DNA of 59,012 bases, from NCBI RefSeq assembly GCF_017377655.1, contig NZ_JAFREL010000034.1, positions 1 to 59,012 of the forward strand, in the 5' to 3' direction. Below the pieces are notes generated by a model that saw only the letters and a program-made list of their open reading frames with translations, had not been told where the DNA came from and did not search any database. This stretch comes from Candidatus Enterococcus ferrettii (GTDB lineage Bacteria > Bacillota > Bacilli > Lactobacillales > Enterococcaceae). Position numbers and translations under genes: made by a program. This document shows positions 17,148 through 35,208 of this stretch, piece by piece; the stretch's first letter is position 1, and every line of letters begins with the position of its first letter.

Positions 17148-17839
17148 GAAACAAGATAATTTTATCATTCTTTGGCAGCTCAATCAACCGTTTTTATAAC
17201 AAAAGGCAGATTACTTACTAAATTAATGGGAAGATACTTTTAAAAGCGATAGTGCTCAATATATCAGCAAAATGAACGATAGCCTTCTCAGTACTGAGAA
17301 GGCCATCTAACTAATCAATATTCATATTTTAAAGTTGAGGGTGTAGACTATTACTAAAAATTAACTATTTCTCGTTTAAACGATGTATTCCCAAATCCTT
17401 CTAATACATCCTTGTAACCCTATAGTTACGCCAGATTGATTAAATTTCATCAAAATGAGTTAAAGTGTCGCATAAAAATATTTTTCGTATTAATCTATTA
17501 TAGCATGTTTTTATGGAAGCTGCGAAGCACGATAGTCAGAATTTAACACTTATTAAGAATTGAAGAAATATAGATCCTGCATACGTTCTTTTTTCTCTCC
17601 AAACTCGTTCTTTGAAAGGATATATAGGTTAATTTATTCATATCTTTTGCAAAAGGAGAAATAGAAAAACCGATTAGGATTCACAATCAACAAGTAAATT
17701 GTAGCGTTAGCAGAGCAGTATTCAAAGTAAAAAAACATGGCAAATATTGATAAAAAGACAAAACAAAAGGCATCTACTATTGACTTCTAGTAGATGCCTT
17801 TACAGAGAACTGGAACCGTTCATTTGAGAATTGCACTCC
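17148..17839. other. gene-poor region upstream of tRNA-Sec
   Basis: No convincing gene lies in these 690 nt. Visible items are a perfect 22-nt palindrome at 17282-17303 (half-site GCCTTCTCAGT), a minus-strand extended -10 TGCTATAAT at 17497-17505 that could start the tRNA-Sec transcript about 350 nt upstream, and a 24-codon minus-strand ORF at 17376-17450 without a ribosome site. Confidence 0.45.
17766..17801. terminator. terminator of the 49-residue gene
   Basis: AAAGGCATCTACTA pairs with TAGTAGATGCCTTT around an 8-nt loop. It lies 39 nt past the stop of the small minus-strand gene, with a U-rich tail on that strand. Confidence 0.8.
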
Positions 17840-17989
17840 TTATGCGATTTTTTTCAATTCTTGTACTGCTTGTTCGATAGTAACACCGGTAGCAAATTGA
17901 TTTGCATCCTCTTCATTAAAAACGATGAAAAGATTCAATTCAGTATCCAAAGTTACTCGATAAGTTAATTCTTTGTTATAGAATGTCAT
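17840..17989 (-). CDS. small protein of unknown function (49 residues)
   Basis: The ORF begins MTFYNKELTYRVTLDTELN and ends EQAVQELKKIA. AAAGGAG lies 7 nt before the ATG at 17989; a second in-frame ATG at 17995 is too near that site. The ribosome site, the stop and the dedicated terminator (17766-17801) make it a credible monocistronic gene. It is acidic, with no membrane segment. I do not recognise the family. Confidence 0.7.
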   Translation of the reverse strand: MTFYNKELTYRVTLDTELNLFIVFNEEDANQFATGVTIEQAVQELKKIA

Positions 17990-18263
17990 ATTCATTCTCC
18001 TTTCTTTGTACTAACGAAAGGCAACTATTACGCTGATAACGAAATTCCATCTATGATTATAGCATAAATGGAAATAGTTGACTACTACGTTGTTTTGAAG
18101 AGGATTCCCTTCACCTTTTATTGTATAGAGTATCTGTTTTGAATAAATGAAGTTTGAGTAAATAATTTGTAAAACTAAAAAATCATGGTTGTTTTTATGT
18201 ATTAGCATGTTAAGCTTTTATTGAAAGCGTTATTATTAATTTGTGAATGGAAGAGGAAAAATA

Positions 18264-20714: not shown

Positions 20715-21436
20715 TGACAGCAATTATTACAGCTAAGAATGTTTTCAAAAGTTACGGGGAACAACATGTGCTAAAGGGAATCGATTTACAGCTTGATCAA
20801 GGCGATTATGTGAGTATTATGGGCCGTTCAGGTTGCGGTAAAACTACGTTACTAAAAATATTGGGCATGGTTAATTCACCCACCTCTGGAAAAGTTTTCT
20901 TTGAGGGTAAAGATACACAGGAGTTGTATCCAGATGAATTATCGGATATTCGGCGCCGTAAATTAGGATTTGTTTTCCAAGATTTCCAATTGATGGAGAG
21001 TATTACGGTACGGGAGAATATTCTGCTGCCGGCTATTTTAGATAAACGGAATCTCAACGAAATAGAGCAGCAATTAAAACCCTTGATTGATACCTTGAGA
21101 ATCGACTCTTTGTTGGATAAACTCCCTCAAACCTTATCAGTAGGAGAAAAGCAGCGAACAGCTATCTGTCGAGCCCTAGTTAATCAACCAAGAATTATTT
21201 TAGCTGATGAACCGACGGGTAATCTCGACAGCAATGCAGGTGCGGAAGTTTTAGCTATTTTTAAGCGCATCAATGAAGCAATGGGTGTAACTATTCTAAT
21301 GATTACTCATGATAATAAGGTTGCCAATGGCGCAAAGAGTGTGATCTTTTTGAAGGATGGTAAAATTTATGACCGAATGAAAACAGCTGGAAAAACAACT
21401 GAGTGGGAAATTGCTGAAAAAATGGTTGAAGTGTAA
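20714..21436 (+). CDS. ABC transporter ATPase partner of the FtsX-like permease
   Basis: The 240-residue ATPase has Walker A GRSGCGKTT, Q-loop FVFQDFQLM and Walker B IILADEPTGNLDS (MacB/LolD type). The signature is LSVGEKQR, with Val in place of the usual Gly, which is tolerated in some members. It is coupled by a 1-nt stop/start overlap to the permease. Earlier in-frame starts would lie inside the permease gene. It probably powers export or a mechanotransmission function. Confidence 0.9.
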   Translation: MTAIITAKNVFKSYGEQHVLKGIDLQLDQGDYVSIMGRSGCGKTTLLKILGMVNSPTSGKVFFEGKDTQELYPDELSDIRRRKLGFVFQDFQLMESITVRENILLPAILDKRNLNEIEQQLKPLIDTLRIDSLLDKLPQTLSVGEKQRTAICRALVNQPRIILADEPTGNLDSNAGAEVLAIFKRINEAMGVTILMITHDNKVANGAKSVIFLKDGKIYDRMKTAGKTTEWEIAEKMVEV

Positions 21437-21702
21437 TCTCTCAAAGGAATGATGATAGAAGTAAAATGCCGATAAAAATATCCGAACTCTACGAGATGAA
21501 CATTCTTAAATGACGAGATCATTTTTTATAGTTCGGATCATCTTATTATTTATTCATGCGCCAGTAGTCCTTATAGATATAAGGCAACCTGATCATTTAT
21601 CGCTAAAGATCGAAAAGACAACTAGTTGCTTTTATATTTAGATTCGGCGAATGGTCGTGAAGCATGGGCTTACGATTGGGATGTAATTAAGTAACTAGAA
21701 GT
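21437..21702. other. intergenic region with a hairpin and a possible gene remnant
   Basis: ATCCGAACT (21480-21488) pairs with AGTTCGGAT (21530-21538) and could act as a weak terminator or small RNA. Bases 21642-21692 translate as DSANGREAWAYDWDVIK before a stop, but the frame is blocked upstream by TAG, so this may be the tail of a decayed gene. No intact gene is seen. Confidence 0.4.
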
Positions 21703-21744
21703 ACCAAAGAAGCGAAAAGTGAACGAACTTTTCGCTTCTTTGGT
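21703..21744. terminator. bidirectional terminator
   Basis: A perfect 17-bp stem has arms ACCAAAGAAGCGAAAAG and complement around an 8-nt loop. It overlaps the stop of the PH-domain gene and serves the minus-strand genes. Confidence 0.85.
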
Positions 21745-22124
21745 TATTTCATTACCGCTGCAGCTAACGCTTGTTGGACCTTTATAATATTTTTGTCTTT
21801 TCTAAACTGTAGTACTTCTGCTGGTTCCAGGGCACTAGAAACCCAAATTTTTAGTTCAGCATCTAAATCAAAGTGTCCAGAAGTTTCAACACTGAAGCGT
21901 GAGATACTTTTGTAAGGATAACTTTTGTATTCAACTTTTTTTCCAGTCATTCCCTGTTTATCGATAATAACTAATCGATAATCTGTAAAAACGATTAAAT
22001 CTCTGACTAACACAAAAGCTAAATCAACTGTTTCACCGGGTATTAATACATTTTCTAATTCTTTGTCTGCTTTTGTTTGTTTAACTTCAGAAGCATTGCC
22101 CATCAGGCCATCAAATAATCCCAT
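21744..22124 (-). CDS. bacterial PH domain protein
   Basis: The 126-residue protein matches the bacterial pleckstrin-homology family (PF08000-like): it begins MGLFDGLMGNASEV and has GETVDLAFVLVRDLIVFTDYRLVIIDKQG followed by YKSYPYKSISRFSVETSG, here described as two segments of one beta-rich domain. AGAGGAA precedes the ATG. It lies downstream of the ImmA/XRE genes on the same strand with a 41-nt gap, and so may be cotranscribed. The family is common in chromosomes and phage-related loci; function unknown. Confidence 0.8.
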   Translation of the reverse strand: MGLFDGLMGNASEVKQTKADKELENVLIPGETVDLAFVLVRDLIVFTDYRLVIIDKQGMTGKKVEYKSYPYKSISRFSVETSGHFDLDAELKIWVSSALEPAEVLQFRKDKNIIKVQQALAAAVMK

Positions 22125-22165
22125 AATTGTTCCTCTTTTCTATTCGTTCGTTAATAAAATATTAT

Positions 22166-22849
22166 CTAGATACACAAAGCCTCATAAAAAGGATTTGTAT
22201 CGATAATTTTTCTTTCGAGATTGGTTCCCAGATCCTTCATCAAAGTTTGTCCAGTATGGCCGAATTGATTTAGTATTTTAAAGCTAGTTTTGCTGGCAGC
22301 TTCATAGGAGGCGCTAAATTCAGCTTGCATTGTCTGAATTAAACGCAGCTTTAAAGCTGTTTCGGAAATACCAAATTCTTTTGAAATGTCGGCTGGTTTC
22401 TTCCCTTGTTTTAATACATTGATAAATACTGGGTCAGGTAAAAGAATTGCCGCAGCTCCGATATTGGCTTGAAATTCAATGAGCGATTTATAATCATACG
22501 TATTCAAAGTTTGCTTTGTATCATAATGGTAAGGAGTTTCTCTATTTAAATGATAAAGGTAGTGAATTAATTCGTGTGAAATTGTAAAGTTAATTCGGTT
22601 TTGGTTCATATGCTTATTGTAAGTAATGGTAGTTTCATGCGCATCTTTAACGATCATTCCGGAGAGCGTTTGACGTGCTTTGCCTTCGAAATAAAAACCG
22701 CGGATTTTTATACTTTCACCCATTATACACTGCCAAACTGCTTCGTGATTATAGTTTTCAACATTCATTTCTAACCCTAACATTGTGGCTGAAAGGTACT
22801 CGTTAATTTTTGTAGAAAATTGAACATATTCCTCTAATTCGCCTGACAT
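22166..22849 (-). CDS. ImmA/IrrE family metallo-endopeptidase
   Basis: The 227-residue product contains ISHELIHYLYH (HExxH zinc site, around residue 90) with hydrophobic context typical of ImmA/IrrE. Members cleave the repressor encoded beside them, as ImmA does ImmR in ICEBs1. It starts 4 nt after the XRE gene, with AAAGGA before the ATG, so the two form one operon. Here it is expected to relieve repression of the adjacent tail locus on a cellular signal such as DNA damage (inference). Confidence 0.85.
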   Translation of the reverse strand: MSGELEEYVQFSTKINEYLSATMLGLEMNVENYNHEAVWQCIMGESIKIRGFYFEGKARQTLSGMIVKDAHETTITYNKHMNQNRINFTISHELIHYLYHLNRETPYHYDTKQTLNTYDYKSLIEFQANIGAAAILLPDPVFINVLKQGKKPADISKEFGISETALKLRLIQTMQAEFSASYEAASKTSFKILNQFGHTGQTLMKDLGTNLERKIIDTNPFYEALCI

Positions 22850-22853
22850 ACAA

Positions 22854-23219
22854 TCAATCCTTTTCTGTACGTTCTCGTTTGATTTCCTGCAGACGCCAAT
22901 TCAAGAAACGCTCAACTTCTTTTTCAATATCTTCTGCATCTTCTTCAGAGAGATCGGATGTATCCGAACGAAGCATAATTTGCCTGGCAATTGAATGATT
23001 GTCTGGAGCATCAGTATCATTGACACTTGCGGCTCGGTCTAACAAATAATCGAGAGAGACATCAAAATAATCAGCAACTTTTTCAATTTTATCAATCCCA
23101 GGTTTGTTTTTTCGCCATCGATTGATTACGCCATTGCCAAAATTCAATCGTTCTTCCAATTGACGAATGGAAATATCTTGTTCATTTGCTAATATTTTTA
23201 TTTTTTCGTATAGATTCAT
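22854..23219 (-). CDS. XRE family transcriptional repressor
   Basis: The 121-residue protein has an N-terminal helix-turn-helix (MNLYEKIKILANEQ, then ISIRQLEERLNFGNGVINRW) and an acidic C-terminal half. The start at 23219 is chosen because AGAAAGG lies 8 nt upstream; a longer reading to 23294 adds a non-conserved stretch without a site. It is divergent from the tail locus regulators, cotranscribed with the ImmA protease, and faces two 17-bp direct repeats that are likely operators. Confidence 0.85.
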   Translation of the reverse strand: MNLYEKIKILANEQDISIRQLEERLNFGNGVINRWRKNKPGIDKIEKVADYFDVSLDYLLDRAASVNDTDAPDNHSIARQIMLRSDTSDLSEEDAEDIEKEVERFLNWRLQEIKRERTEKD

Positions 23220-23274
23220 GAGAAAAACCTTTCTTTCTAAAAAACATAGACAAAAAATCGACATGGTTGCATTA

Positions 23275-23291
23275 TGTAGAATATATGTATA
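23275..23291. promoter_or_regulatory. probable XRE operator, copy 1
   Basis: TGTAGAATATATGTATA matches the copy at 23349-23365 at 15 of 17 positions. The two copies are 74 bp apart, about seven helical turns, in the divergent promoter region. Confidence 0.6.
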
Positions 23292-23348
23292 CAATAGTTG
23301 TATAGGAGACGGAAAAAAGGGCCAATCTGATCTATTCTTCTTCTCTAT

Positions 23349-23365
23349 TGTAGAATATTTGTCTA
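23349..23365. promoter_or_regulatory. probable XRE operator, copy 2
   Basis: TGTAGAATATTTGTCTA lies about 45 nt upstream of the first ArpU-like gene. It also carries TTTGTCTA, an inverted match to TAGACAAA near 23247, giving a further possible contact site close to the XRE start. Confidence 0.6.
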
Positions 23366-23411
23366 TTTAAGTAAAGAAGTGATGAGAAAATTGGCGAAAG
23401 GAGTTACGCAC

Positions 23412-23774
23412 ATGGAAAAATGGAAAAAAGATTATTTGAAAGGAATTCTTTCAGATTATCCTAACTTGAAAGAGTATATTAAGGAAAAGGAGGGTGAAAT
23501 TTCTCTTCAGTGGCCGAACACTGACGATCGATTACTCATAACTATTTCTTCAGATAGGAGACTGAGAAATTTAGAAAGAAACCATAGAATAATTCAGGAG
23601 ACCTTAGCAACTGCTTCTCCTGAAGTTCGCATAATCATTAAAGAGCTGTATATGAATCCATACAAAAATTACAATTTATCTAATGTAGCAGATCAAGTCT
23701 ATTTAAGTGCACGACAGGTAACACGTTTACGGGATCAGTTTTTTGCTAACTTACTGGAGAAATTGGGAATTTAA
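23412..23774 (+). CDS. ArpU/sigma-like phage late regulator, first copy
   Basis: The 120-residue product starts at ATG 23412 with AAAGGAG 8 nt upstream. It begins MEKWKKDYLKGILSDYPN and ends with a sigma-70 region 4-like helix-turn-helix (NLSNVADQVYLSARQVTRLRD split over two helices). This size and C-terminal HTH are typical of ArpU/RinA-type activators of phage late genes. It is the first plus-strand gene of the tail locus, directly across from the XRE repressor. Confidence 0.7.
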   Translation: MEKWKKDYLKGILSDYPNLKEYIKEKEGEISLQWPNTDDRLLITISSDRRLRNLERNHRIIQETLATASPEVRIIIKELYMNPYKNYNLSNVADQVYLSARQVTRLRDQFFANLLEKLGI

Positions 23775-23791
23775 ATTTTTTTAACCAAAAA

Positions 23792-23805
23792 AGAACATAT
23801 GTTCG
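23792..23805 (+). promoter_or_regulatory. SOS (LexA) box
   Basis: AGAACATATGTTCG matches the Firmicutes consensus CGAACnTATGTTCG (read on the reverse, CGAACATATGTTCT) at 13 of 14 positions. It overlaps a possible -10 (TATGTT) between the first and second ArpU-like genes, 27 nt before the second start. Confidence 0.85.
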
Positions 23806-23831
23806 AAAAGAGATTAAAAGGAGGAGTTAAT

Positions 23832-24257
23832 ATGGCAGAATTAAGTAAAGCAAAATTAGCAAATTTAGAAGAGGATTTTCGTTCTTATAAAAGGTTACCT
23901 AGTAAAATGGCAGAGGCACTAATAGCTGATGAATGGCAGCCTAATGATGTAAATATATGGATGAAAAATTCTATGCCCCACCCAGAGGAAGAATTAGGAG
24001 CTCTATTTCTAAAGGAGAGAAATAGAAGCTACAGGTATTATGCAGCTTTGTATGAAGATATTACGAAGGTATATAACCAATTAAGTGAAGATCTAAAAGA
24101 GCTGGTGGATATCTATTTATGGGGAGAATTTAACTATTTGAGTTGGCCTGAAATAGCTAAAGCAACTTACTTTTCTACTGCTGGAATTTATAAGAAACGT
24201 TATCGTATTTTAGAAAAATTAGCGATTGAGCGAGGAATTTTGGTAAGAGTAGAATAA
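23832..24257 (+). CDS. ArpU/sigma-like phage late regulator, second copy
   Basis: The 141-residue product starts at ATG 23832 behind AAGGAGGAG. Its C-terminal third (DIYLWGEFNYLSWPEIAKA, then an STAGIYKKRYRILEKL recognition helix) is an ArpU-like HTH. An SOS box lies directly upstream, so this gene is a good candidate for the DNA-damage-induced activator of the tail genes that follow (inference). Related in layout, not closely in sequence, to the regulators at 23.4 and 33.5 kb. Confidence 0.7.
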   Translation: MAELSKAKLANLEEDFRSYKRLPSKMAEALIADEWQPNDVNIWMKNSMPHPEEELGALFLKERNRSYRYYAALYEDITKVYNQLSEDLKELVDIYLWGEFNYLSWPEIAKATYFSTAGIYKKRYRILEKLAIERGILVRVE

Positions 24258-24459
24258 CGTTTATATCTTTCTACCAATTACATAAGTTAAATTGGTAATG
24301 TCAAAGTGATCAGTAAATACAATTTAAGAATCGTCCGTTTCCGGAGGTAGTGGACGTTAAATAAAACACGTGAGGGTCTTCCAGTGACCAAAAATGTGCG
24401 TATCTGAAAATAATTAGTTACAAGTAAACCGCTGCAGAGGGAGTAGGAGGACTAATCAT
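24258..24459 (+). other. structured leader before the tail genes
   Basis: These 202 nt have no ORF but two hairpins: TACCAATT/AATTGGTA (24272-24297) and CGTCC/GGACG (24332-24356). They lie between the activator and the first structural gene, where a late promoter or leader RNA is expected. The T-tract of a terminator is absent. Confidence 0.5.
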
Positions 24460-24846
24460 TTGGAATCAGAAAGAATCATTGAAAAACTACAAAAACGAAT
24501 TGGCAAAGAGCAAGCAAAAAAGAATACATTTCGCCAACGTTTAGAAGAAACACACATCTACATTCAACAACTTGAGAATCAGAAAAAAGAGCTGGTTCAA
24601 GAAAATCAAAAACAGGAAGAACAGCTTTCAAGGTTGGAGCTGCACTATCGGCAACAACTTTTTATGAAGCAAGCTGAACGAATTTGGCAAGAATTTCAAC
24701 AAAGCTTTACAGAGCAGCTATTATTAACTGATCAATCTTTTGAACTTGCATTATCAGAGTTAAACACAATGTTAGTTGTCTTAGAAGATCAAATCGGTCA
24801 GTTAATCGGCAGCACCTTAACTTTAGAAAAGAAAATGGAGGAATAG
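24460..24846 (+). CDS. coiled-coil protein preceding the major tail protein
   Basis: The 128-residue protein starts at TTG 24460 behind AGGAGG. Residues 1-75 are strongly charged and heptad-like (EKLQKRIGKEQAKKN, RQRLEETHIYIQQLENQKKEL), so a coiled coil is expected. The second half is also helical. It takes the position normally held by head-tail joining or tail terminator genes, 3 nt before the major tail protein. I do not recognise it; it may cap or terminate the tail in the absence of a head (inference). Confidence 0.65.
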   Translation: MESERIIEKLQKRIGKEQAKKNTFRQRLEETHIYIQQLENQKKELVQENQKQEEQLSRLELHYRQQLFMKQAERIWQEFQQSFTEQLLLTDQSFELALSELNTMLVVLEDQIGQLIGSTLTLEKKMEE

Positions 24847-24849
24847 AAT

Positions 24850-25362
24850 ATGGCAGCATTAGACGGAATCGATGTATTGTGGCGCTATCGCTTTACAGAG
24901 GAAGAAGGAAACGAGGCAGCTTGGAGATTGGCTTACACAACAGAAAGCGGCTATTCAAAATCAAAAAGCAGTGAAACGACGATCACGAAAGACGGTACAG
25001 TTGTTACACCAGGGGCAGTCGAAACAACTGCTTCAGCAACTACTTTATACAAAGTAGGAGATATCCGCATCGATGAATTGGAAGAAAAAGGAATTGATGC
25101 CGGCAAACGGATGCAATTATGGCGGATCAGCACTAAAGAGGCGGGCACCGGGGAGAATGCATCTAAGTATAAAGCAAAGTATTTTGAAGGGTATCTTACA
25201 ACCTTTGAACCAACAGACAACGCTGAAGACAAAGTAGAGTATTCACTGGAATGGTCAATCGAATCAACTGGGAAAAATGGCTATGCAACATTAGTAATTG
25301 ACGATAGTGATGGTGGCGATTATGCGTTCAAGGATACAGTAAAAGTTGAGGCAGCACCATAA
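24850..25362 (+). CDS. phage major tail protein, TP901-1 type
   Basis: The 170-residue protein begins MAALDGIDVLWRYRF and contains IDAGKRMQLWRIS and KYFEGYLTTFEPT, followed by VEYSLEWSIES. This is the pattern of the TP901-1-like major tail (tube) protein family, which is 160-200 residues. It should polymerise into the non-contractile tail tube. The next genes are the tail chaperones and the tape measure, the standard siphophage order. Confidence 0.85.
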   Translation: MAALDGIDVLWRYRFTEEEGNEAAWRLAYTTESGYSKSKSSETTITKDGTVVTPGAVETTASATTLYKVGDIRIDELEEKGIDAGKRMQLWRISTKEAGTGENASKYKAKYFEGYLTTFEPTDNAEDKVEYSLEWSIESTGKNGYATLVIDDSDGGDYAFKDTVKVEAAP

Positions 25363-25386
25363 TCAAACACTTAGGAGGATCTTTTT

Positions 25387-25734
25387 GTGGATATTACTGT
25401 AAATGAAAAAAACTATCATTTTAAATTTGGGTACGGTTTTTTAGCAAGAATTAACGAGAAATACTCGTTAGATAAAAACGGCATTGAACTGAGACTAGGG
25501 ATTGGTACCATCATTACTAATCTTATGTTGGGTGATATGCAAACTGCATTTGAAGCACTTCTTATGGCAAATGAGACAGAAAAGCCTAAAATCACGCTGG
25601 ATTTATTGGATCAGTATTTAAGTGAGGTTGGTGCTGAAAAACTAATCAATGATGTGATCGAAGAATTAAAAAAGTCGGAGTATACAAAACGCCTAGTCAA
25701 TCAAACGTTGCAGGAAGCTCAAGGAGCTCTGTAA
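25387..25734 (+). CDS. tail assembly chaperone (short form, gpG-like)
   Basis: The 115-residue product begins with GTG at 25387 behind AGGAGG: VDITVNEKNYHFKFGYGFL. It is at the gpG position between the major tail and tape measure genes. Near its end codons for Leu-Lys-Lys form the heptamer A_AAA_AAG, where a -1 shift would yield the long chaperone. Chaperones of this kind coat the tape measure during tail assembly and are not part of the finished tail. Confidence 0.82.
   Translation: MDITVNEKNYHFKFGYGFLARINEKYSLDKNGIELRLGIGTIITNLMLGDMQTAFEALLMANETEKPKITLDLLDQYLSEVGAEKLINDVIEELKKSEYTKRLVNQTLQEAQGAL
25668..25674 (+). promoter_or_regulatory. -1 programmed frameshift site A_AAA_AAG
   Basis: TTA AAA AAG in the zero frame gives the canonical slippery heptamer. 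The -1 frame is open from 25674 to 26087, and the short-form stop is 58 nt downstream. The heptamer and the overlapping frames are read directly; use of the site is inferred from tail chaperone genes in general. Confidence 0.85.
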
Positions 25735-26087
25735 AACCACGATCATTTCGCGATTACTATGAGGAAGTTCAAATCAACGCCTTGCGTTGTCTGAACTTCT
25801 TCCATTTTAAAGATATTGAGCGAATGACGATTGTGGAATATGAACTAAGGATGAAGGCATTTCGTCTGCAGCAGGTGGATGAACAATATATGATTCATTC
25901 ACAGGCTTGGGCTAATGCCATGGCCCAAGCAACGAAAAAAGGGAAACCCATTTATAAGCGTTTTGATAAGTTTTTTGATTATAAAAAGGCAATTAAACGA
26001 GCAACTGAAGAGGTGTCGGTGAAGGAAGCTGATAAGGATCAGTTGCAGGACTTTATTGCGAACTATAATGCGAAAGGAGGGAAATAG
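25674..26087 (+). CDS. tail assembly chaperone extension (T part of the gpGT-like fusion)
   Basis: This -1 frame continues the short chaperone after residue 96 and adds 137 residues, for a fusion of 233. The core of the T domain is RSFRDYYEEVQINALR, then IERMTIVEYELRMKAFRLQ. The only in-frame initiator (TTG at 25782) would remove the conserved SFRDYYEE segment and has no ribosome site, so frameshifting fits better than independent initiation. The stop adjoins the tape measure start. Confidence 0.82.
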   Translation, partial: VGVYKTPSQSNVAGSSRSSVKPRSFRDYYEEVQINALRCLNFFHFKDIERMTIVEYELRMKAFRLQQVDEQYMIHSQAWANAMAQATKKGKPIYKRFDKFFDYKKAIKRATEEVSVKEADKDQLQDFIANYNAKGGK

Positions 26088-28052
26088 ATGGATGACATGT
26101 ATAATTTTGAAATTACACTTTCTAACATGAATAGTTTATTTCAACGAACAGAAGCAGCGAAAGAAGAAAGCGAGCCAGTGCGAGGGATTTTACGAATGGC
26201 TTCTAAGTTGGCTGATGCAGCAACTGGAAAAATCTCAGGGCGCTCTAGTGCATCGGCAAACGAATTGGAAAATTCTGGTAAAGCTATAAACAGCCTAGGG
26301 AAATCGGTGAATTCAAGTGTTGATGAGTTATCAAAGGCTTGGCAAAAGATTTTAAACGGTGTAGATCAAGTCAATCGAGCGTTTGAAACCCTAGGTGAAA
26401 ATAGCGGTATTTCTAAATTTCTAGAATTAATGAGTAATGTAAAAGCCATTGTTACACCAGTAGAAAAAGCCTTAAGTAAATTTAACGGCGTAGTTGATTC
26501 GTCAGTAGGAAAAATAACTGGCTTACTAGGAAGTAAAAAAGAAGATAATGCTAAGTCGGATGGCAAGGATAATTCAGGCTGTAAATGTTCTTCCTCAAGC
26601 AGCGGAGAGAAAAAAAGCGGTGGAGCAAATCCAGCAGTGCAGTTGAAGGATGAGGTTGAAAAATCGAAAGGTGCATTTGAAACAATTCAAGGTATTGTAA
26701 ACGGCATGCTTGGCGGCTTAACCAATGTGTTTGGTCTAGCGCTAAAAGTATTAGGCCCAGGAGCAATTTTAGGAGTCGTTTTAGCTGGTTTAGGTTTAGC
26801 CAATCAGCAATTTGGAGAGCAAATCTCTAGTATGATTACGATGATTGCTACGAAGGGACCAGAGATCATTAATAGCTTAGTGACTAACATAACGACAGCT
26901 TTACCAGCCTTGATCGCTTCGGGGGCGCAAATTTTAACGTCGCTAATGGAAGCTATTACTGCCAACATCGAACCCATATTTAATGGAGCGGTGGCAATTA
27001 TTAGTTCTCTAATCGAAGGAGTGATTGCGGCTTTACCGCAATTAATTCCAGCTGCCTTGCAGATGATTGAAACTTTGGCAATCAGCTTGATTAGCGCAGC
27101 ACCTCAATTAATGATTCAGGGCTTGAATCTGCTGCTAGCGATTGTACAAGGGATTAGTGAAAACACTGGGAGAATTGTCGAGACCATTGCTAATGTGCTA
27201 ACTGCTTTTCTTGGCGCTATTACGGAATATTTACCGACAATTTTTTCTAAAGGGATTGAAATTTTAGTTACGCTAGTTACCGCGATTGCTAAAACAGTTG
27301 GCGAACTGATCCCCGTAGCAGCAAGCATTATTTATCAATTTTTAAGTACCATTGGAGAGAAGCTGCCGGATGTTGTCAGCAAAGGGATCGAAATAGTTGG
27401 TTCCTTGATTCGAGGATTAATCGAAAAACTGCCTCAGGTTATCGAATCAGGTGTTCAATTGATCCAAGCCCTTATCCAATCGATTGCCGAAAAAATTCCA
27501 GCAGTAAAGGAAAAGGCGATGGAAATTACCGCTAATTTACTTTCTAAAATTTTGGAAGCTGGCTCAGATATGGTCGGGGCCGGCAAAGATTTAGTGCGTG
27601 GATTTATTGAGGGTATTGGTTCAATGATCAATAGTGTTGTTCAAAAAGCAGGTGAATTGGCTTCTTCGGCTGTGGATAAAGTCAAAGAATTTCTACGAAT
27701 AAAATCACCGTCTCGAGTATTTAAAAGGATTGGTGAATATACTGGTCAGGGGTTTGTATTAGGAATGGACAGCATGATTTCTAATGTTGAGAAAACTTCT
27801 GAACAGTTAGCTCAGGCGGCTATTCCCGATATGCAATCGATGGACTATGCGATGAATCAAAGTATGGGAAGTATTGGGGCTAATTTTTCAGCGGAATCAA
27901 TGAATCAACCAATTATTATCGGCAATGATCAACCAATTTATGTCACGTTGCCAGATGGAAGGATTATTGCTGAAACAACAGCACCCTTTATGCCTAAACT
28001 GCTTCAAAAACATCAGGATCGCAGGAACAGTCAATTAGGAAGGAGAGGATAA
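26088..28052 (+). CDS. tail tape measure protein
   Basis: The 654-residue protein is the largest hydrophobic-helical product after the chaperones. It has a helical N-terminus, a Ser/Lys-rich linker with GCKCSSSSSGEKKSGG (around residues 164-180), a membrane-active middle (residues about 210-480) rich in repeated LIxxAxQ and GIEIxxxL units, and the common tape-measure ending LRIKSPSRVFKRIGEYTGQG. It sets tail length; at roughly 0.15 nm per residue it implies a tail of about 100 nm (inference). GGAGGG precedes the ATG. Confidence 0.9.
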   Translation: MDDMYNFEITLSNMNSLFQRTEAAKEESEPVRGILRMASKLADAATGKISGRSSASANELENSGKAINSLGKSVNSSVDELSKAWQKILNGVDQVNRAFETLGENSGISKFLELMSNVKAIVTPVEKALSKFNGVVDSSVGKITGLLGSKKEDNAKSDGKDNSGCKCSSSSSGEKKSGGANPAVQLKDEVEKSKGAFETIQGIVNGMLGGLTNVFGLALKVLGPGAILGVVLAGLGLANQQFGEQISSMITMIATKGPEIINSLVTNITTALPALIASGAQILTSLMEAITANIEPIFNGAVAIISSLIEGVIAALPQLIPAALQMIETLAISLISAAPQLMIQGLNLLLAIVQGISENTGRIVETIANVLTAFLGAITEYLPTIFSKGIEILVTLVTAIAKTVGELIPVAASIIYQFLSTIGEKLPDVVSKGIEIVGSLIRGLIEKLPQVIESGVQLIQALIQSIAEKIPAVKEKAMEITANLLSKILEAGSDMVGAGKDLVRGFIEGIGSMINSVVQKAGELASSAVDKVKEFLRIKSPSRVFKRIGEYTGQGFVLGMDSMISNVEKTSEQLAQAAIPDMQSMDYAMNQSMGSIGANFSAESMNQPIIIGNDQPIYVTLPDGRIIAETTAPFMPKLLQKHQDRRNSQLGRRG

Positions 28053-28055
28053 ACC

Positions 28056-28988
28056 TTGAGTTTATATGAATTTATTGATACAACAGCACCGCAAAAGCAA
28101 CCTTCTCTTCCTTCCGAAGCGTTGAATTTTAATGGGAACTTTCTGGAGGAAATAATTTCTGGTTATCGGACATTAAATGTAACCGGCCGTGAATTGGCAG
28201 CGACAGAAGTTGAAAGCTATCAATTAGGGATTCGTGACGGGAAACGACATGTGTATGCCAGAATTCCAGATCGTGTGCTGACAATCAAGTATCAGCTGAC
28301 GGCGTCAAATAATGAATCTTTTCGAGATAAATTCAATCGGTTGAATGTTGCCTTGTTTTCTGAAAAAGATGTAGAGCTCTGGTTCAAAGATGAACCAGAG
28401 ATGCGATGGACAGGTAGTAAATTAGAGGCGGGTGAAGTGCCAGAAGGCGTTAATCAAGTAATCGGAACCTTCACTATTTTATTAAGTGATCCCTATAAAT
28501 ACACCAGTTCAGATGCTACAAGTGTAATGTGGGGTTCCCAGACCATTACTTTCCAAGCAAATTATTTAATGGGAAATACAGGATCTGGAGCTGTAAACAT
28601 GCCGATTAGGATTGAAGGTGGAGCTTACTGGGGATCCACTATGATCACTTTTCAAAATCGGGCCTACACAATGGGAGATGAAGGCAAAGAAATTAAACCA
28701 ATTGAAATTTATCCAACCGTTGAGGGATTGAAGGTAAAACCTACCATTACTTTATCAGGAACTGGGCGAGGCGTTTGGATTAAGACTAGGAATGACACCG
28801 TTGATTTAGGTGACTTTGACCGTTCAGAAGTTGTCATTGATACCAAATTTTTTAATATTACTAGAAATGGACAGCCAATGATTCGACCAATGAATGATTT
28901 TTATATTTACCCTAACGAACCATTGTACGTCCAAGCAAAGGATAGTGATTTCCGCCTAACTATACGCTATCCAAATCGATTCTTATAG
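28056..28988 (+). CDS. distal tail protein (Dit-like)
   Basis: The 310-residue product starts at TTG 28056 with GGAGAGG upstream. It begins MSLYEFIDTTAPQ, and the N-terminal ring domain has SGYRTLNVTGRELA and ARIPDRVLTIKYQL, with FTILLSDPYKY before the C-terminal part, all typical of SPP1 gp19.1/Dit proteins. It should form the hub ring joining the tube to the Tal spike. It lies 3 nt after the tape measure gene. Confidence 0.85.
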   Translation: MSLYEFIDTTAPQKQPSLPSEALNFNGNFLEEIISGYRTLNVTGRELAATEVESYQLGIRDGKRHVYARIPDRVLTIKYQLTASNNESFRDKFNRLNVALFSEKDVELWFKDEPEMRWTGSKLEAGEVPEGVNQVIGTFTILLSDPYKYTSSDATSVMWGSQTITFQANYLMGNTGSGAVNMPIRIEGGAYWGSTMITFQNRAYTMGDEGKEIKPIEIYPTVEGLKVKPTITLSGTGRGVWIKTRNDTVDLGDFDRSEVVIDTKFFNITRNGQPMIRPMNDFYIYPNEPLYVQAKDSDFRLTIRYPNRFL

Positions 28989-29000
28989 GAGGCTGAGCAT

Positions 29001-31034
29001 ATGCTTATGGCAATGAATCTCAAGCGAGAGTATACAGCGATCCTTGAGAATGCATTTAATGTTAGTTATGAAAAAATTGAAAATCAGATTGGAAGCATCG
29101 AGTTTTCCATGCCGCTGGATGAATCTAAAAATAAGTTTTTACAAGAAATGTTGTGGGTAGAGTTAGTGGATAATGAGAATGAATATATTGGTTTATATCG
29201 GATCATGCCTTCAACGATTCGAAAAGATGCCTCGCAAAATACGATTACCTATACGGCTACCCATGCATTGTGCACCTTACTAGATACGGTCCTCTTTGGT
29301 TATCACGAGTGTATCAACAGAAAAACAGAGGATGCGATCAAGTTCATTTTATCTAAACAAAAGACAAAACATTGGGTATTGAAAAAGTGCGACTTTACGA
29401 AGTACTTTTCCTACTCTTGGGAAAATGAGAATGGGTTAGCAGATGCGCTGTTTTCAATTCCAGAGGTCTTTGATGAAGAGTATTTGTGGGAGTGGAATAC
29501 ACAAACATATCCGTTCGAACTCTCTTTGGTTAAGCCTAGGACATCCGCTGTGGCACGGATTCAAGAAGGCTATAACATGCAAGGCTTTGAAATTGAAAGA
29601 GATCCCAATAATTTAGTCAACCGCATTTATCCTCTGGGTTCTGGTGAAGGCGTCAACCAGTTAAATATTTCTTCTGTCAACAATGGAATTTATTACATTG
29701 AAAACAAAGAAAGTATCGAGAAGCATGGATTAATTGAATATGTTTGGACAGATACTCGTTTTACCCAGGCTCAGTCGTTAAAAGACAGTGCCGAAAGCCT
29801 ATTAAAAAAATGGTTGGAACCTAAAATTTCATGGACTATTCGAGCGACTGACCTGATGAAGCTAACCGATCAGCCGTTAGCAATTGATCAATTAAGACTG
29901 GGCAATATTGTAATGATTAATACTAATGATTTTGGCAGTATTGATTTGCGAATCAAAATGGAAAGGAAAAATGATGTATTTGGCGCTCCACAGGATATTG
30001 AGTTAGAGCTTGGTAATCTAAGCGGAGACATCACAACCACCGTTTCAGATTTGAGTCGGAAGCAGCAGATCAATGAAACCTACTCCCAAGGGGCAACAAA
30101 TATATTGAGCTACTCTTATCAAGATAATTGTGAATATAACTTTCCAGCGAAAATTGATTTTTATTTAGATGAGGATGTATTTCATATCAATACGGTGGAA
30201 TTAACCTATAAAACAAAAAAATATCGTGGGTATACGAAAGCTGTTCGTGATGGAGGGGCGAAATCTATCAACAGTGAAGATGGTGGTGCAAAAACGATTA
30301 GCAGTAAAAATAATCGAGCAATAACGGTAGCTACTTCTAATGGTGGTGGAGGAAATTCGACAACCAGTTCTGATGGGGATATCCATATAAACGAAATGAC
30401 TGGTCAAAGTGGTGGAGGAACGACAAATACTAGTCCTGCCGGTGATCATAATCATTTGGTACTTCGAGGTGGGGATTATGTTAATCATAAGTGGAAGGAT
30501 GATGAGACAGCGAATGTTTATAATGCTTCCAACGGCAATAGTCTTTTTGTTGGTGGAAGCGGCTCAGTTAAAGACATTTATACTGCGACTTCTTCTGGAA
30601 ATCATTCCCACAGTGTGGATTTACCAAGTCACTCCCATAATTTCAGGTTTGACAAAGCTGGGCATACCCACAGCGTTACGATTCCCGCCCACGCTCATAA
30701 TGTGACGATTCCGGCACATAATCATCAAATGGATTTACCGGCACATAAACATAAGATAAATCTGCCAAATCACACACATCCATTACAGCTAGGAATTTAT
30801 GAAGCCAATGAGAACGCCAGCAAGGTAGATATTTATGTGGATGGAGAACTACTAAAAGATAGCCATAAATTAGATGAAAATCGATTGGATATTGTAGGAA
30901 GTTTGAAAAAAAGCAATGGGAAAATTCTACGGGGCAATCATACAATCGAGATTAGACCCAATAAATTAGCGAGAATAGAAGCACAAATTACTTGTCGGGT
31001 ATTTATTCAAAGCCAAATCGGCGGACAGTTTTAG
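29001..31034 (+). CDS. tail-associated protein Tal with HxH-repeat C-terminus
   Basis: The 677-residue product has an N-terminal prophage endopeptidase tail domain (Prophage_tail type, residues about 1-350: MLMAMNLKREYTAILENAF, FEIERDPNNLVNRIYPLGSG). A Gly/Ser/Thr-rich linker follows. Residues about 480-595 carry eight HxH motifs (HNH, HSH, HSH, HTH, HAH, HNH, HKH, HTH). In T4 gp37 such motifs bind iron along a needle-like tip, so a metal-bound spike is plausible. No lytic catalytic motif is obvious. ATG 29001 follows GGAGG. Confidence 0.85.
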   Translation: MLMAMNLKREYTAILENAFNVSYEKIENQIGSIEFSMPLDESKNKFLQEMLWVELVDNENEYIGLYRIMPSTIRKDASQNTITYTATHALCTLLDTVLFGYHECINRKTEDAIKFILSKQKTKHWVLKKCDFTKYFSYSWENENGLADALFSIPEVFDEEYLWEWNTQTYPFELSLVKPRTSAVARIQEGYNMQGFEIERDPNNLVNRIYPLGSGEGVNQLNISSVNNGIYYIENKESIEKHGLIEYVWTDTRFTQAQSLKDSAESLLKKWLEPKISWTIRATDLMKLTDQPLAIDQLRLGNIVMINTNDFGSIDLRIKMERKNDVFGAPQDIELELGNLSGDITTTVSDLSRKQQINETYSQGATNILSYSYQDNCEYNFPAKIDFYLDEDVFHINTVELTYKTKKYRGYTKAVRDGGAKSINSEDGGAKTISSKNNRAITVATSNGGGGNSTTSSDGDIHINEMTGQSGGGTTNTSPAGDHNHLVLRGGDYVNHKWKDDETANVYNASNGNSLFVGGSGSVKDIYTATSSGNHSHSVDLPSHSHNFRFDKAGHTHSVTIPAHAHNVTIPAHNHQMDLPAHKHKINLPNHTHPLQLGIYEANENASKVDIYVDGELLKDSHKLDENRLDIVGSLKKSNGKILRGNHTIEIRPNKLARIEAQITCRVFIQSQIGGQF

Positions 31035-31092
31035 TGAAGTTACAAATTGAATTGAGCTGCTAAAGTGAAGCAGCTTAAAGGAGGAAAAACAT

Positions 31093-32895
31093 ATGGCAAT
31101 TGAACATATTAAAGAGACCGATACCCTTAATCAAGGGCGGCAAAAGATTAACGAAATCATGGACCAATCCAATCAGTCAGCTCAAAAGGTTGACGACTAT
31201 TCAAGAACCTTAGAACAAGGAATCAGAGATGCCAAACAAATTGCGGCCGATGCCGGTGATGATGCCAAACAAATCGCTCAAAATGCCGGAGAAGAGGCAA
31301 ATATAAAGGCAGATCAAGCAGTCGCTGATTCAAAAACAGCGGTAGAAACAGCCAATCGCGCTGTAGGAACAGCCAATCAAAATAAGCAAGAATTTGATAC
31401 GCTAAGAAATGAGTTTGATGAACTTGTTGCCGAATCTGGCGACAGCAATCCTGAAATTGTCCAAGCTCGTACCGATACAGAAGGAATTAAACAGCCAACC
31501 TTACAGGCAAGATTAACCAGAGATTTCGGCAACCGTTTGACTACTGCGGATGCGATCAAAATGTTTTCAGGTTCAGTAAATACCCCTAAGATGATGGACT
31601 TTTCAAGTAAAACAACTGGTAATTTAGCAACGAATCCTCATCAAGGTTATTCAGATTATACGGCTGCCACGTTGAAAAAGCCTGCAGCAGCTTGGAACGA
31701 AGTAAATCAGGATGCTTACAATAAGCTGGTAGCTCGAGATGACTCTGGCGTTTCAACAGGCTCAACGCAAAATGGCGTAATTCCGCAGCAACTATTTAAA
31801 TTTGATGTAATAAAAGCCATTGAACAGATTGCACCAACAGTATTTAGTGGAAAAAGTTTAGAGGAAAGTATTCAGTTGATAAAAAACAACTTTGTTTCAT
31901 TTACGCTAGCACTGCGGGGAAAAGCAACTTCACCTAACAATAAAAATCTGAAGGTCGCAACTTATTTGGAATCAACGGACAGCTACTCTACTCAGATGCA
32001 AAGTGCAGCGCAAGAGTACACTGACTTCACGACAGAAATTAATGATCGCAATTTTATTGATTCTAAAGGAAAAATCAATGTACTTGTTTATTCGGATAGT
32101 TCCAATGGTGTAACTTCTTCAAACGTTGATATTGATTATGTTGGGGTTCAAATTGTCGTCTCCTTGAATCCATTAGATGTTTTAGAATCAAGCGGTTTTG
32201 CCAAATCAGAGAATGTCACTAATCAATTGAAACAGCATACCGATGATAAAAACAACCCTCACAGTGTCACAAAAAGCCAGGTCGGACTAGGCAGTGTACC
32301 CAATTATGGGGCTGCAACGGATGCCGAAGCTTTGTTGGGAACAGTTAATAATAAAGTGATGACTCCGAAGAATGTGAAGGACACCATTGAGGCTCAATCT
32401 GTACTGCTAGAAGGGAGTCAAGATGTTAATGGAAAGAAAAATTATACAAAGATGCCCTCTTTTAAAAATGTTGATATGGCGATTCCTTATACTGAAAATA
32501 ACAGTCCAGATGCTCAAAACGCCTTCCAAACAAATGGGAAAATCTATTTAGGTGGAGAAATTTGGCTGGGATGGTCAAGTGCATCATTGGAAAATGCTGG
32601 CGTTTGGAAAACGGGTAATGCTGTACAACTAGGATCCGGGAAATACCCTGCATTACAAGTACCTAGTAATATGAAAAGCGTAATTACTATTTTGGGTTAT
32701 AATGTTCGGCCTAACTATTATGGCGGGGCAGGCTTTGAATCATTCCAGTTAGTGGCTGATTGTACATTTAATGGCTTTGAGAAGCCTCATGTTTTCTTTA
32801 TTAAAACATCAAATGATGGAATTAAAAAAATTTTAGTAACAGGAGCTCTCTTGTATAGAGGGGCGCCTCCAGAAAATCCAAAATCTGCGTATTAA
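31093..32895 (+). CDS. baseplate/tail fibre receptor-binding protein
   Basis: The 600-residue protein begins AIEHIKETDTLNQGRQKINE, the usual N-terminus of Gram-positive phage fibres. A coiled coil (residues about 20-115) follows, then a fibre repeat with DKNNPHSVTKSQVGLGSVPN (around 390) and a beta-rich C-terminus likely to bind the cell surface. GGAGG precedes the ATG. It is the host-range determinant of the particle if the locus is a tail-like bacteriocin. Confidence 0.82.
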   Translation: MAIEHIKETDTLNQGRQKINEIMDQSNQSAQKVDDYSRTLEQGIRDAKQIAADAGDDAKQIAQNAGEEANIKADQAVADSKTAVETANRAVGTANQNKQEFDTLRNEFDELVAESGDSNPEIVQARTDTEGIKQPTLQARLTRDFGNRLTTADAIKMFSGSVNTPKMMDFSSKTTGNLATNPHQGYSDYTAATLKKPAAAWNEVNQDAYNKLVARDDSGVSTGSTQNGVIPQQLFKFDVIKAIEQIAPTVFSGKSLEESIQLIKNNFVSFTLALRGKATSPNNKNLKVATYLESTDSYSTQMQSAAQEYTDFTTEINDRNFIDSKGKINVLVYSDSSNGVTSSNVDIDYVGVQIVVSLNPLDVLESSGFAKSENVTNQLKQHTDDKNNPHSVTKSQVGLGSVPNYGAATDAEALLGTVNNKVMTPKNVKDTIEAQSVLLEGSQDVNGKKNYTKMPSFKNVDMAIPYTENNSPDAQNAFQTNGKIYLGGEIWLGWSSASLENAGVWKTGNAVQLGSGKYPALQVPSNMKSVITILGYNVRPNYYGGAGFESFQLVADCTFNGFEKPHVFFIKTSNDGIKKILVTGALLYRGAPPENPKSAY

Positions 32896-32947
32896 TAATT
32901 TAAACAGTCAACTGAGAAATACTTTAGTTTTGAATCGAGGTGAACAC

Positions 32948-33352
32948 ATGGAAAAATATTTAAACGAACTATCTATCATTATCGGTTTGATTGGTGGATT
33001 CTTCGTAAATTATCTTGGAGGGATGGATGCTATTTTACATGCACTAATCTTTTTAGTGGTACTTGATTATGTCACTGGACTGATTAAAGCTTGGAAATTG
33101 AAAACAATCAACAGTGAAATTGGCTTTGTAGGTTTAATTAAAAAAGTATTACTATTTGCAGTAGTAGCTGTTTCTGTTGAGGTTGAAAAAATTTTAGGAA
33201 ATACGATTCCTTTACGGGAAATCGTTATTATGTTCTATTTAGCAAATGAAGGAATTTCATTTCTTGAAAATATTTCCGAGTTTATTCCTCTACCGGAAAA
33301 GCTGCGAGAAGTTTTTCAACAAATTAGAGATAAAGAAGAAAAAAGGGGCTAA
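32948..33352 (+). CDS. phage holin (TcdE-type)
   Basis: The 134-residue protein starts at ATG 32948 behind CGAGGTGA. It has three hydrophobic helices: the first within LSIIIGLIGGFFVNYLGG, the second within ILHALIFLVVLDYVTGLIKA and the third near IVIMFYLANEGISFLENI, matching the Phage_holin_4/TcdE family. The C-terminus is charged. It should permeabilise the membrane for release. No endolysin gene follows it, which is unusual. Confidence 0.85.
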   Translation: MEKYLNELSIIIGLIGGFFVNYLGGMDAILHALIFLVVLDYVTGLIKAWKLKTINSEIGFVGLIKKVLLFAVVAVSVEVEKILGNTIPLREIVIMFYLANEGISFLENISEFIPLPEKLREVFQQIRDKEEKRG

Positions 33353-33382
33353 GAGAAGTCCAATTGAATGAAAGGAATAAAC

Positions 33383-33459
33383 TATCCTGAATGATGAGAC
33401 GGGTCAAAATTAGGATGAAAAATCTAATTTTTAGACTGCTTCATTATCAGGATATTTTT
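33383..33459 (+). terminator. terminator after the holin gene
   Basis: TATCCTGA (33383) pairs with TCAGGATA (33447) and an inner AAAATTAG/CTAATTTT stem closes the long imperfect hairpin, followed by TTTTT. It separates the tail operon from the third regulator. Confidence 0.75.
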
Positions 33460-33475
33460 CGCTAAGGAGAATGCT

Positions 33476-33850
33476 ATGAACAAAGCAACTAGAACGCATA
33501 TACGTAATATTCTATGGGATATCAAAACAATCAAAAAAGTATTGAGGAATATTTCAGATGTTACATTGGATCAAAAAAATGTATTTTTGGACTATCCTGT
33601 TTCGCGTGATTTAAATACTCAGTGGAATATTAATCAATTGGTTTTTCATAAAATGTTTTTGACAATAGTCGAAGAAACTTTATCAAATTCACCAGATCAA
33701 ATAACTACTATTTTCGAATCGAAGTATCTAAACGGTTATCCAAGTAAAGATAATGCTGTAGTAGCTAGTGATGTCTATTTAAGTGAGTCCACAATTAAAA
33801 GGTACGACAATGAATTTCTTCAAGAAATAGCTGTTCGATTGGGTTGGTGA
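33476..33850 (+). CDS. ArpU-like regulator, third copy
   Basis: The 124-residue protein has an ArpU-type layout: helical N-terminus (MNKATRTHIRNILWDIKT) and a C-terminal HTH (SDVYLSESTIKRYDNEFLQE). AAGGAG precedes the ATG. It lies after the tail operon and its terminator, whereas phage ArpU genes usually precede the late genes. It may be a relic or a second control gene. Confidence 0.65.
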   Translation: MNKATRTHIRNILWDIKTIKKVLRNISDVTLDQKNVFLDYPVSRDLNTQWNINQLVFHKMFLTIVEETLSNSPDQITTIFESKYLNGYPSKDNAVVASDVYLSESTIKRYDNEFLQEIAVRLGW

Positions 33851-33930
33851 TTGGTTTGAGTTTTTGAGTTCAAAGATCAATGGCATTATCGTTTAAAATG
33901 TACGATACAATGCTCCAAAAAATTTAAAAA

Positions 33931-33969
33931 AAGGAATTCAATAATGAGCACATCATCATTGAATTCCTT
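33931..33969. terminator. terminator at the right edge of the tail locus
   Basis: AAGGAATTCAAT pairs with ATTGAATTCCTT. The U-tract is strong on the minus strand, so it mainly serves the monooxygenase-like gene. Confidence 0.82.
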
Positions 33970-33989
33970 CTTAAGTGTATCAGTCTTTT

Positions 33990-34277
33990 TTATCCTTGAT
34001 ACTCAACCTTTTTAAGTTCTTTATCTGCTGATAAATATGGATCGATTTCTGCTAAGAATTTTTTTAAATGATCTGTAGCATTATGTTTATCAATGGCCGC
34101 CTGATCACGCCAATTTTCAATAATCATGAATTGATTTCTGTTATCCAGACTTTCTAGGCAATCATAGAACAGTGCACCTTCATCTTGCCGAGATTTGTTG
34201 ACTAAATCTTCTACAAACACCAAAAATTCTTCTCTTTTTTCTTCTTTTACCTTTAGTAATACATTAATAATAATCAT
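33990..34277 (-). CDS. putative quinol monooxygenase (ABM domain)
   Basis: The 95-residue protein matches the antibiotic biosynthesis monooxygenase/YgiN fold: FLVFVEDLVNKSRQDEGALF, then FMIIENWRDQAAIDKHNATDH and an end near DKELKKVEYQG. It lies 11 nt after the VOC gene on the same strand and is probably cotranscribed. Substrate unknown; many members act on quinones or are of unknown function. Confidence 0.82.
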   Translation of the reverse strand: MIIINVLLKVKEEKREEFLVFVEDLVNKSRQDEGALFYDCLESLDNRNQFMIIENWRDQAAIDKHNATDHLKKFLAEIDPYLSADKELKKVEYQG

Positions 34278-34288
34278 TATTTTCTCCT

Positions 34289-34648
34289 TTAACCTTTTTT
34301 ATGGCAAACAGCTTCAATATTGTAACCATCTGGATCAATCACAAAAGCACCATAGTAATTTTCATGATAGTGGGGACGAAGACCTGGAGCTCCGTTTGTT
34401 TCACCACCAGCATTCAAAGCTGCTTGGTAAAAAGCGTCAACATATTCACGAGTATTTGCACTAAAAGCAACATGGGTTTTGCTAGGTTCACTTTTAACAA
34501 TCCAAAGATCGCCACCGTCTTTAGCACCAAAGCAAACACCGTTTTCCATTTCTACTTTTACTTCGTAACCTAATGGTTTTAAAGTTTTCTGGTAAAAAGT
34601 TTTGCTTTTGCTCAAATCTGAAACGCCTAAACTCAAATGATCGATCAT
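34289..34648 (-). CDS. VOC family (glyoxalase-like) protein
   Basis: The 119-residue single-domain VOC protein begins MIDHLSLGVSDLSKSKTFY and has GAFVIDPDGYNIEAVCH at the end, with the paired beta-alpha-beta modules and the metal-type His and Glu. The family includes glyoxalases, dioxygenases and drug-binding proteins. AAGGAAGG precedes the ATG. Confidence 0.85.
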   Translation of the reverse strand: MIDHLSLGVSDLSKSKTFYQKTLKPLGYEVKVEMENGVCFGAKDGGDLWIVKSEPSKTHVAFSANTREYVDAFYQAALNAGGETNGAPGLRPHYHENYYGAFVIDPDGYNIEAVCHKKG

Positions 34649-34758
34649 ACAAGGACCTTCCTTCTTTATTGATTAAAAATAGTATAGCAAATATTAAGCA
34701 TTTATGGAGAGCAAATCAGGATGTTTACTAGTTTTTGACAGAAAAAATACATACGTTA

Positions 34759-35208
34759 TTATTTGTTCGTGTTACTCGTCTTTTCTAATGGAATCAGAGT
34801 GATGGTCTCCGTTTCCTGGGGCTCTTCTGAAGTGAAGACCACATTTTCTCCATCTAATTTCACCCGGTAATCATTATCTAATTCTAATTCTTCATTTTTT
34901 AGATGGATTGTTTCTTCTTCTAATTGATAGGCTACGTGAAACGCCATATTTTCAATCAGTTCCTTACCTAATTCTTCCCCAGCTTGTTCCCACTCGTTAG
35001 ATGCATCAGTGGGTGTTTCTGGAGTGTCGATAGTAAGAACCATTTCCTTGTCATTAAAGGATGCAATAAATTTTATATCTTCCTCTTGCTCGTGTGTTTC
35101 CATTACCCAATCATGGGCTTTCAGGTCGTTCACCGTGACCGACTTTCCACAAGCGGATAGCGTGAGACACATTAGGATACCCCACATTCCCACAAACAAC
35201 TTTTTCAT
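34759..35208 (-). CDS. lipoprotein of unknown function
   Basis: The 149-residue product starts at ATG 35208 behind AGGAGG; the longer reading to 35256 has no site. It begins MKKLFVGMWGILMCLTLSAC, a signal peptide with lipobox LSAC. The mature part is acidic and beta-rich (DWVMETHEQEEDIKFIASF, then YRVKLDGENVVFTSEEP). It should be anchored on the outer face of the membrane. No known family is recognised. Confidence 0.8.
   Translation of the reverse strand: MKKLFVGMWGILMCLTLSACGKSVTVNDLKAHDWVMETHEQEEDIKFIASFNDKEMVLTIDTPETPTDASNEWEQAGEELGKELIENMAFHVAYQLEEETIHLKNEELELDNDYRVKLDGENVVFTSEEPQETETITLIPLEKTSNTNK

Follow-up and report, generated by a model that had tools for sequence, protein, structure and literature searches.

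Why would an Enterococcus keep the genes for a phage tail without those for a head? The question is raised by a locus at positions 22166-33972 of contig NZ_JAFREL010000034.1 of Candidatus Enterococcus ferrettii (assembly GCF_017377655.1); the whole 59,012-nucleotide stretch analysed here is called the window, all positions are given in its coordinates, and its open reading frames (ORFs) were scanned with Pfam, PHROGs and NCBIfam. We propose, with a probability of roughly 0.7, that the locus encodes an intact, DNA-damage-controlled tailocin of the flexible (F) type and of monocin design, that is, a domesticated headless flexible tail. What can be read in the sequence is the gene content, the open frames, a LexA-type box, low ratios of nonsynonymous to synonymous divergence (dN/dS), the exchange of a tail module and the swap of its tip.

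The locus opens with two divergent arms. On the minus strand lie an IrrE-like M78/DUF955 metalloprotease (22166-22849; PF06114, 51.9 bits; HExxH at residues 92-96), a putative anti-repressor, and a CI/ImmR-like helix-turn-helix repressor (22854-23219, from a likely ATG start at 23219; longest ORF 22854-23294). On the plus strand run the RinA/ArpU-family regulator ArpU1 (23412-23774), the ArpU-like ArpU2 (23832-24257) and, behind the tail genes, the ArpU/RinA-like ArpU3 (33476-33850), which is 46% identical to the regulator behind the phiEf11 endolysin. Between repressor and ArpU1 are operator-like repeats, putative in function, at 23246-23263, 23275-23291 and 23349-23366, the copy at 23349 being conserved in four species. 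The tail genes, all on the plus strand, encode a major tail (tube) protein of the TP901-1 family (24850-25362), tail assembly chaperones 1 (25387-25734) and 2 (25782-26087), a tape measure protein of 654 residues (26088-28052), the distal tail protein Dit (28056-28988), Tal, a prophage tail spike-type protein (29001-31034), and a tail fibre (31093-32895), and are followed by a PF05105 holin (32930-33352). A sequence-only reading of this DNA had named the repressor/protease pair, the ArpU-like regulators and this tail gene order, and the family scans identified all of them; its span, 22854-33850, left the protease just outside. The frameshift it had placed in the chaperones agrees with an in-frame slippery heptamer, A AAA AAG, at 25668-25674, after which the -1 frame is open (from 25674) into the second chaperone; heptamer and open -1 frame are likewise present in Enterococcus pallens. 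Every tail ORF is open, as had been claimed.

What is missing is equally telling. No terminase, portal, capsid, integrase or replication family matched among the scanned ORFs of the locus, and phiEf11 head, terminase and integrase queries matched nothing in positions 15000-34999 of the contig; on these grounds we reject an ordinary intact prophage. The genome holds no match to the TerL family PF03354, which says little, as the search there did not extend to further terminase families. The earlier claim that no head gene is present stands for terminase, portal and capsid but needs one amendment, since 24460-24846 encodes a truncated relative of a capsid scaffold. The scanned flanking genes are of ordinary chromosomal kinds, as had been noted, namely PH-domain, ABM monooxygenase, glyoxalase, sulfatase, ABC transporter and MerR genes.

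The nearest named genome, that of E. pallens ATCC BAA-351 (G012, locus L001; Dit 94% identical), carries the same headless locus at the same site with its tail ORFs open, and in neither of the two tail-bearing genomes read did we see an inactivating mutation. We paired 56 genes between the window and E. pallens, the one species pair compared; two gave no synonymous divergence (dS) because of saturation. The seven tail genes (24850-32895) have dS of 0.12-0.34 and no other compared gene falls below 0.42, with values of 0.89-2.5 for the regulators and protease of the locus, 0.53 for the scaffold-derived gene and 0.55 for the holin. The two sequences are about 94-99% identical in nucleotides from 25.0 to 32.25 kb (87-91% within a portion of Dit) and roughly 70-92% in the alignable parts outside. 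In six of the seven tail genes dN/dS is 0.02-0.09, pointing to selection; the fibre reaches 0.53 because of its diverged end. Its first 430 residues include 420 identical ones, 36 of 153 aligned residues agree thereafter (from about 32383), and the last 170 or so are unrelated. The low dS of the tail genes, taken with the unrelated fibre end, therefore indicates for this species pair that the tail module has moved between species at the site and that its receptor end was replaced. A conserved fibre body with a differing tip is what one would expect of a targeting part that is changing, and the window's tip shares 83% with one metagenomic fibre, the single protein found. Against PDB sequences Tal has no match up to an E value of 0.01 and the fibre a single weak one (E 0.073); the structure model of the fibre, with a mean predicted local distance difference test score (pLDDT) of 37, is useless.

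How rare is a tail of this kind without a head? Among 20 same-genus genomes, Tal matched three (the window's own, E. pallens and G002). Dit matched 33 of 105 family genomes, with 12 strong places in 10 genomes (65-100% identity); all 12 were read with window and phiEf11 queries, together with a single weaker place, on contig C124 of G000. Head or packaging genes lie near nine of the strong places, and the three tail-only ones are the window, E. pallens and a locus of the pp2 type in G020. A tape-measure search scored 7999 candidates and gave 165 hits, and among the best 120 of these, relatives of almost equal length come from Enterococcus sp. AZ163 (96%) and AZ109 (74%). A 13.4-kb contig with such a headless locus (L163) is entered in IMG/VR as a viral genome, IMGVR_UViG_2545824667_000001; its tape measure and Tal are 97% and 98% identical to those of the window and its scaffold-derived gene 74%, as in E. 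pallens.

The scaffold relic gives a hint of how the head was lost. The 128-residue coiled-coil protein encoded at 24460-24846 (plus strand) matches a PHROG head-scaffold family at 2.5e-9 (1e-9 in an own-genome search), and its start, KLQKRIGKEQAKKN, is found letter for letter in the scaffold protein of an IMG/VR siphophage (L164), with 33% identity overall; in that phage the gene lies between minor-head and adaptor matches. The truncated form is represented by 12 database proteins of 123-141 residues, the window's own included, and since dN/dS between window and E. pallens is 0.24, the gene appears to be kept rather than free to drift. We considered it as a tail terminator and rejected this, as the model is a pair of helices (pLDDT 86; predicted template modelling score 0.51) and the sequence matches phage scaffolds. 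The relic marks the junction of a head deletion, pointing to an origin of the locus by deletion of the head. The temperate siphophages phiEf11 and EFC-1 have the same gene order and Dit, fibre body and major tail proteins 76-77%, 52-56% and 43-44% identical to those of the window (Tal, 64% in phiEf11); in contrast to the locus, phiEf11 comes with modules for head, packaging, integration and lysis and with a tape measure of 1135 residues.

What would switch the tail on? Upstream of the tail operon, between ArpU1 and ArpU2, lies a LexA-type box, AGAACATATGTTCG (23792-23805), which the sequence-only reading had not named. A box occupies the same place after ArpU1 in E. pallens and in two other species of the genus, G010 and G005, with adjoining bases partly conserved. 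Of the 50 GAAC-N4-GTTC sites in the 5.4-Mb genome, the one at this locus is the only one with the perfect core GAACATATGTTC. The LexA box consensus CGAACRNRYGTTYG is that of Bacillus; the genome's own lexA is preceded by CGAACGCTTGTTTG, which begins 58 bp ahead of the gene's start, fits CGAAC-N4-GTTYG and differs from CGAACATATGTTCG at 4 of 14 places. The earlier suggestion of SOS inducibility is made plausible by a candidate box conserved in four species, and the same box could instead be an ArpU operator. Downstream of ArpU2, the plus-strand leader (24258-24459), a putative late promoter region, is about 90% identical between species, above the neighbouring regulator genes, and folds slightly better than its shuffles (z -1.96; 5 of 200 as good); it is a possible late promoter or ArpU target. 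Rfam gave no match up to an E value of 1 in 21500-34500. Terminator-like hairpins found by a consensus scan sit at both edges, at 21703-21744 (bidirectional, with an 18-bp stem on both strands) and at 33928-33972; the total count of promoter-like and terminator-like sites was not above that in shuffles.

These elements suggest the following course. In the resting cell, the CI-like repressor would shut the divergent promoter and LexA would occupy a second site, the box between ArpU1 and ArpU2. DNA damage would then remove LexA while the M78 protease inactivates the repressor, presumably by cleavage, whereupon the ArpU regulators would turn on the operon and a short tail of the TP901-1 type with a swappable receptor tip would be assembled. 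At about 0.15 nm for each tape-measure residue, a rule of thumb, its length would be near 100 nm. The holin would open the membrane and, as holins can trigger host autolysins, lysis might be completed by these or by the lysin of a resident prophage. The released tails would kill related cells by attaching to them and permeabilising them.

Tails put to such use have precedents. F-pyocins are headless non-contractile tails that Gram-negative bacteria use against other bacteria; to our knowledge, Gram-positive F-type tailocins are known mainly from Listeria. Rhizoviticin, also Gram-negative, is another headless non-contractile tail used against other bacteria (PMC10811719), and is likened to the locus, as are the F-pyocins, by description. 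The closest parallel is the Listeria monocin (mon/ftb/lma), a likeness of gene layout. The accounts of the monocin give a layout of repressor and DUF955 protease, two early genes, tail and holin (PMC6872733, PMC7076858), with the protease acting as an anti-repressor needed for lytic induction under mitomycin (PMC6872733). In both systems a CI-like repressor and a DUF955 (M78) protease face away from two early genes, behind which come flexible tail genes and a holin. Both lack excision genes, and the SOS link of the monocin has a candidate counterpart here in the LexA-type box. The Enterococcus locus is set apart by its truncated scaffold gene, by tail-less cassettes at the same site and by module exchange. 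An alignment search with the M78 protease across 395 genomes of the order (E values up to 1e-25) hit 18 genomes, each belonging to the same family as the window's genome and none of them Listeria. Apart from one sentence on similar Enterococcus clusters in PMC6872733, the titles and abstract openings found in the open-licence literature hold no description of an enterococcal F-type tailocin.

Several observations weigh against a monocin-like weapon. No endolysin was found in the locus, here or in E. pallens, by ORF scans and phiEf11 queries, so that the holin stands alone in both species, whereas monocins carry holin and endolysin (PMC6872733, PMC7076858). Release must therefore depend on host autolysins or some other lysin, for example the one of the siphophage on contig C124, for which there is a partial match at the contig end, and it is the weakest step of the proposed mechanism. 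No tail terminator was recognisable among the scanned ORFs of the locus. The protease, with its HExxH at residue 92, belongs to another length class than MpaR, in which the mutated histidine is H54 (PMC6872733). The scaffold-derived marker gene is rare: among 105 family genomes its family model is matched at full length in just two, those of the window and E. pallens, with one weak match, containing stops, in G082. Finally, the box motif with up to two mismatches occurs 11 times in the window against 12.8 expected from shuffles, and GAAC-N4-GTTC is rarer in the whole genome (50 sites) than a reversed control (65); the counts show no excess, and the case for the box rests on its exactness and conservation.

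Is the tail the heart of the locus or a guest in it? G010 and G005 have a cassette at the same site with no tail gene, between the same markers, a PH gene to the left and, to the right, ABM, glyoxalase and lipoprotein genes; the PH gene (PF08000; 21744-22124, minus strand), left neighbour of the cassette in four species, is probably a host gene. Identities to the window in G010 and G005 are 73-74% and 69% for the repressor, 87% and 77% for the protease, 64% and 54% for ArpU1, and 70% and 71% for the holin. In G010 an Amidase_5 endolysin separates ArpU1 from the holin; G005 has a lysin in pieces. Because two species keep repressor, protease, ArpU and holin at the site without a tail, we conclude that the tail block is housed within a regulated lysis cassette; gain of the tails in the lineage of the window and E. 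pallens and loss in the other species both fit. The cassette reaches further still. The protease matched in 42 of 105 family genomes, and of 20 such loci fetched, 13 have, in this order, protease, CI-like repressor, ArpU-like regulator and holin and lack any tail-gene match within 9 kb, all in another enterococcal genus group, g13 (L123-L135; for example L126, 3004-5377, and L135, 3047-5382). Four have an integrase match beside the protease, and in three (L121, L137, L138) no holin was seen. In 10 of the 13 tail-less cassettes the queries used, which could miss other lysin families, matched no lysin within 9 kb, and two of these, L126 and L135, showed none when read gene by gene. A LexA-type box lies before the holin in G082, bringing to five the genomes read with one; the other 12 of the 13 tail-less cassettes have none inside, and two of these have a GAAC-N4-GTTC site 2.9-3.0 kb off. 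We tentatively raise the possibility that the host-owned unit is this repressor/protease-ArpU-holin cassette, retained in enterococcal species, mostly with no lysin, as a switch that damage or stress triggers to open the membrane. Tail modules would be plugged into it, exchanged between species and lost, and the particle would be an optional load on an older platform for controlled release.

Since tail-less cassettes are so common, lysis may be the older function, and the tails might be made for some end other than killing competitors, such as self-lysis with release of DNA or vesicles, adhesion or a decoy. We consider this unlikely, as exchange of the receptor tip fits the targeting of varying cells better than self-lysis.

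Nor is it probable that the locus is a decaying remnant, a TP901-1/phiEf11-like prophage that lost head and replication genes by deletion and whose other genes are not yet broken, the alternative that the sequence-only reading had set aside. The truncated scaffold gene would mark that deletion, and the endolysin, missing from the locus, is in pieces in the sister species G005. There is also a precedent in E. faecalis V583, where pp2 (EF1276-EF1293), tail-only like our locus and at another site, is described in PMC3675006 as a core-genome remnant that does not excise, with genes for replication, tail and lysis and none for integrase, portal, head or packaging. The pp2-type copy in G020 (L043) has a repressor/M78 pair, a Dit 77% and a holin 48% identical to those of the window, and a major tail protein only 28% identical, whose ORF (L043, 7277-7830) is broken by a stop, unlike that of the window. 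It is flanked by rbfA- and truB-like genes and brings its own replication-like, tail-terminator-like and amidase-like genes, most of these names being given by look; with chromosomal site and early genes differing, we reject the idea that the two are one element. Against decay stand tail genes that are open in two species under dN/dS of 0.02-0.09 in six of seven, the retained LexA-type box and slippery site, a truncated scaffold gene recurring at 123-141 residues in 12 database proteins, counting that of the window, and a tail module exchanged between species.

That the locus instead serves as a helper, supplying tails, protease or holin to the resident C124 siphophage of the same genome (L052, a stretch with head, tail and lysin matches that ends at the contig end) much as the monocin protease serves phi10403S and acts on other prophages (PMC6872733), is highly improbable, because that phage has its own tail genes, with a Dit only 34-40% identical, and an ORF with a HExxH-like motif and a LexA-type box, by look, lies about 23 kb away on the same contig. 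In the parts of the genome that were read, head and terminase genes forming one unit with the locus were not found elsewhere, the C124 siphophage having its own head, tail and lysin genes. The box on C124, GAACGTACGTTC (L056), adjoins both the HExxH-like ORF and an integrase-like frame, again by look.

If the reading as an F-type tailocin is right, the locus would be a second, differently built Gram-positive F-type tailocin, in Enterococcus, and would show how such weapons originate, by head deletion next to a scaffold gene, and how they spread, by exchange of tail modules with a swap of the receptor tip at one fixed site. It would also show that trigger and release cassette can exist alone, and the tail-bearing and tail-less species at the same site would amount to a natural experiment on the domestication of phage tails.

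Elsewhere in the window, a second LexA-type box, CGAACATACGTTCT, lies at 39866-39879 upstream of 39294-39850, an area that holds a small gene with no Pfam match and the gene of a DUF5960 protein. The genes at 5168-11528 are, by look, what we take to be a selenocysteine cassette (selD, YedF, selB, cysteine desulfurase and selA); near it are proline-racemase-like and D-proline-reductase-like genes, and a second prd-like pair, likewise named by look, lies at 39925-41136.

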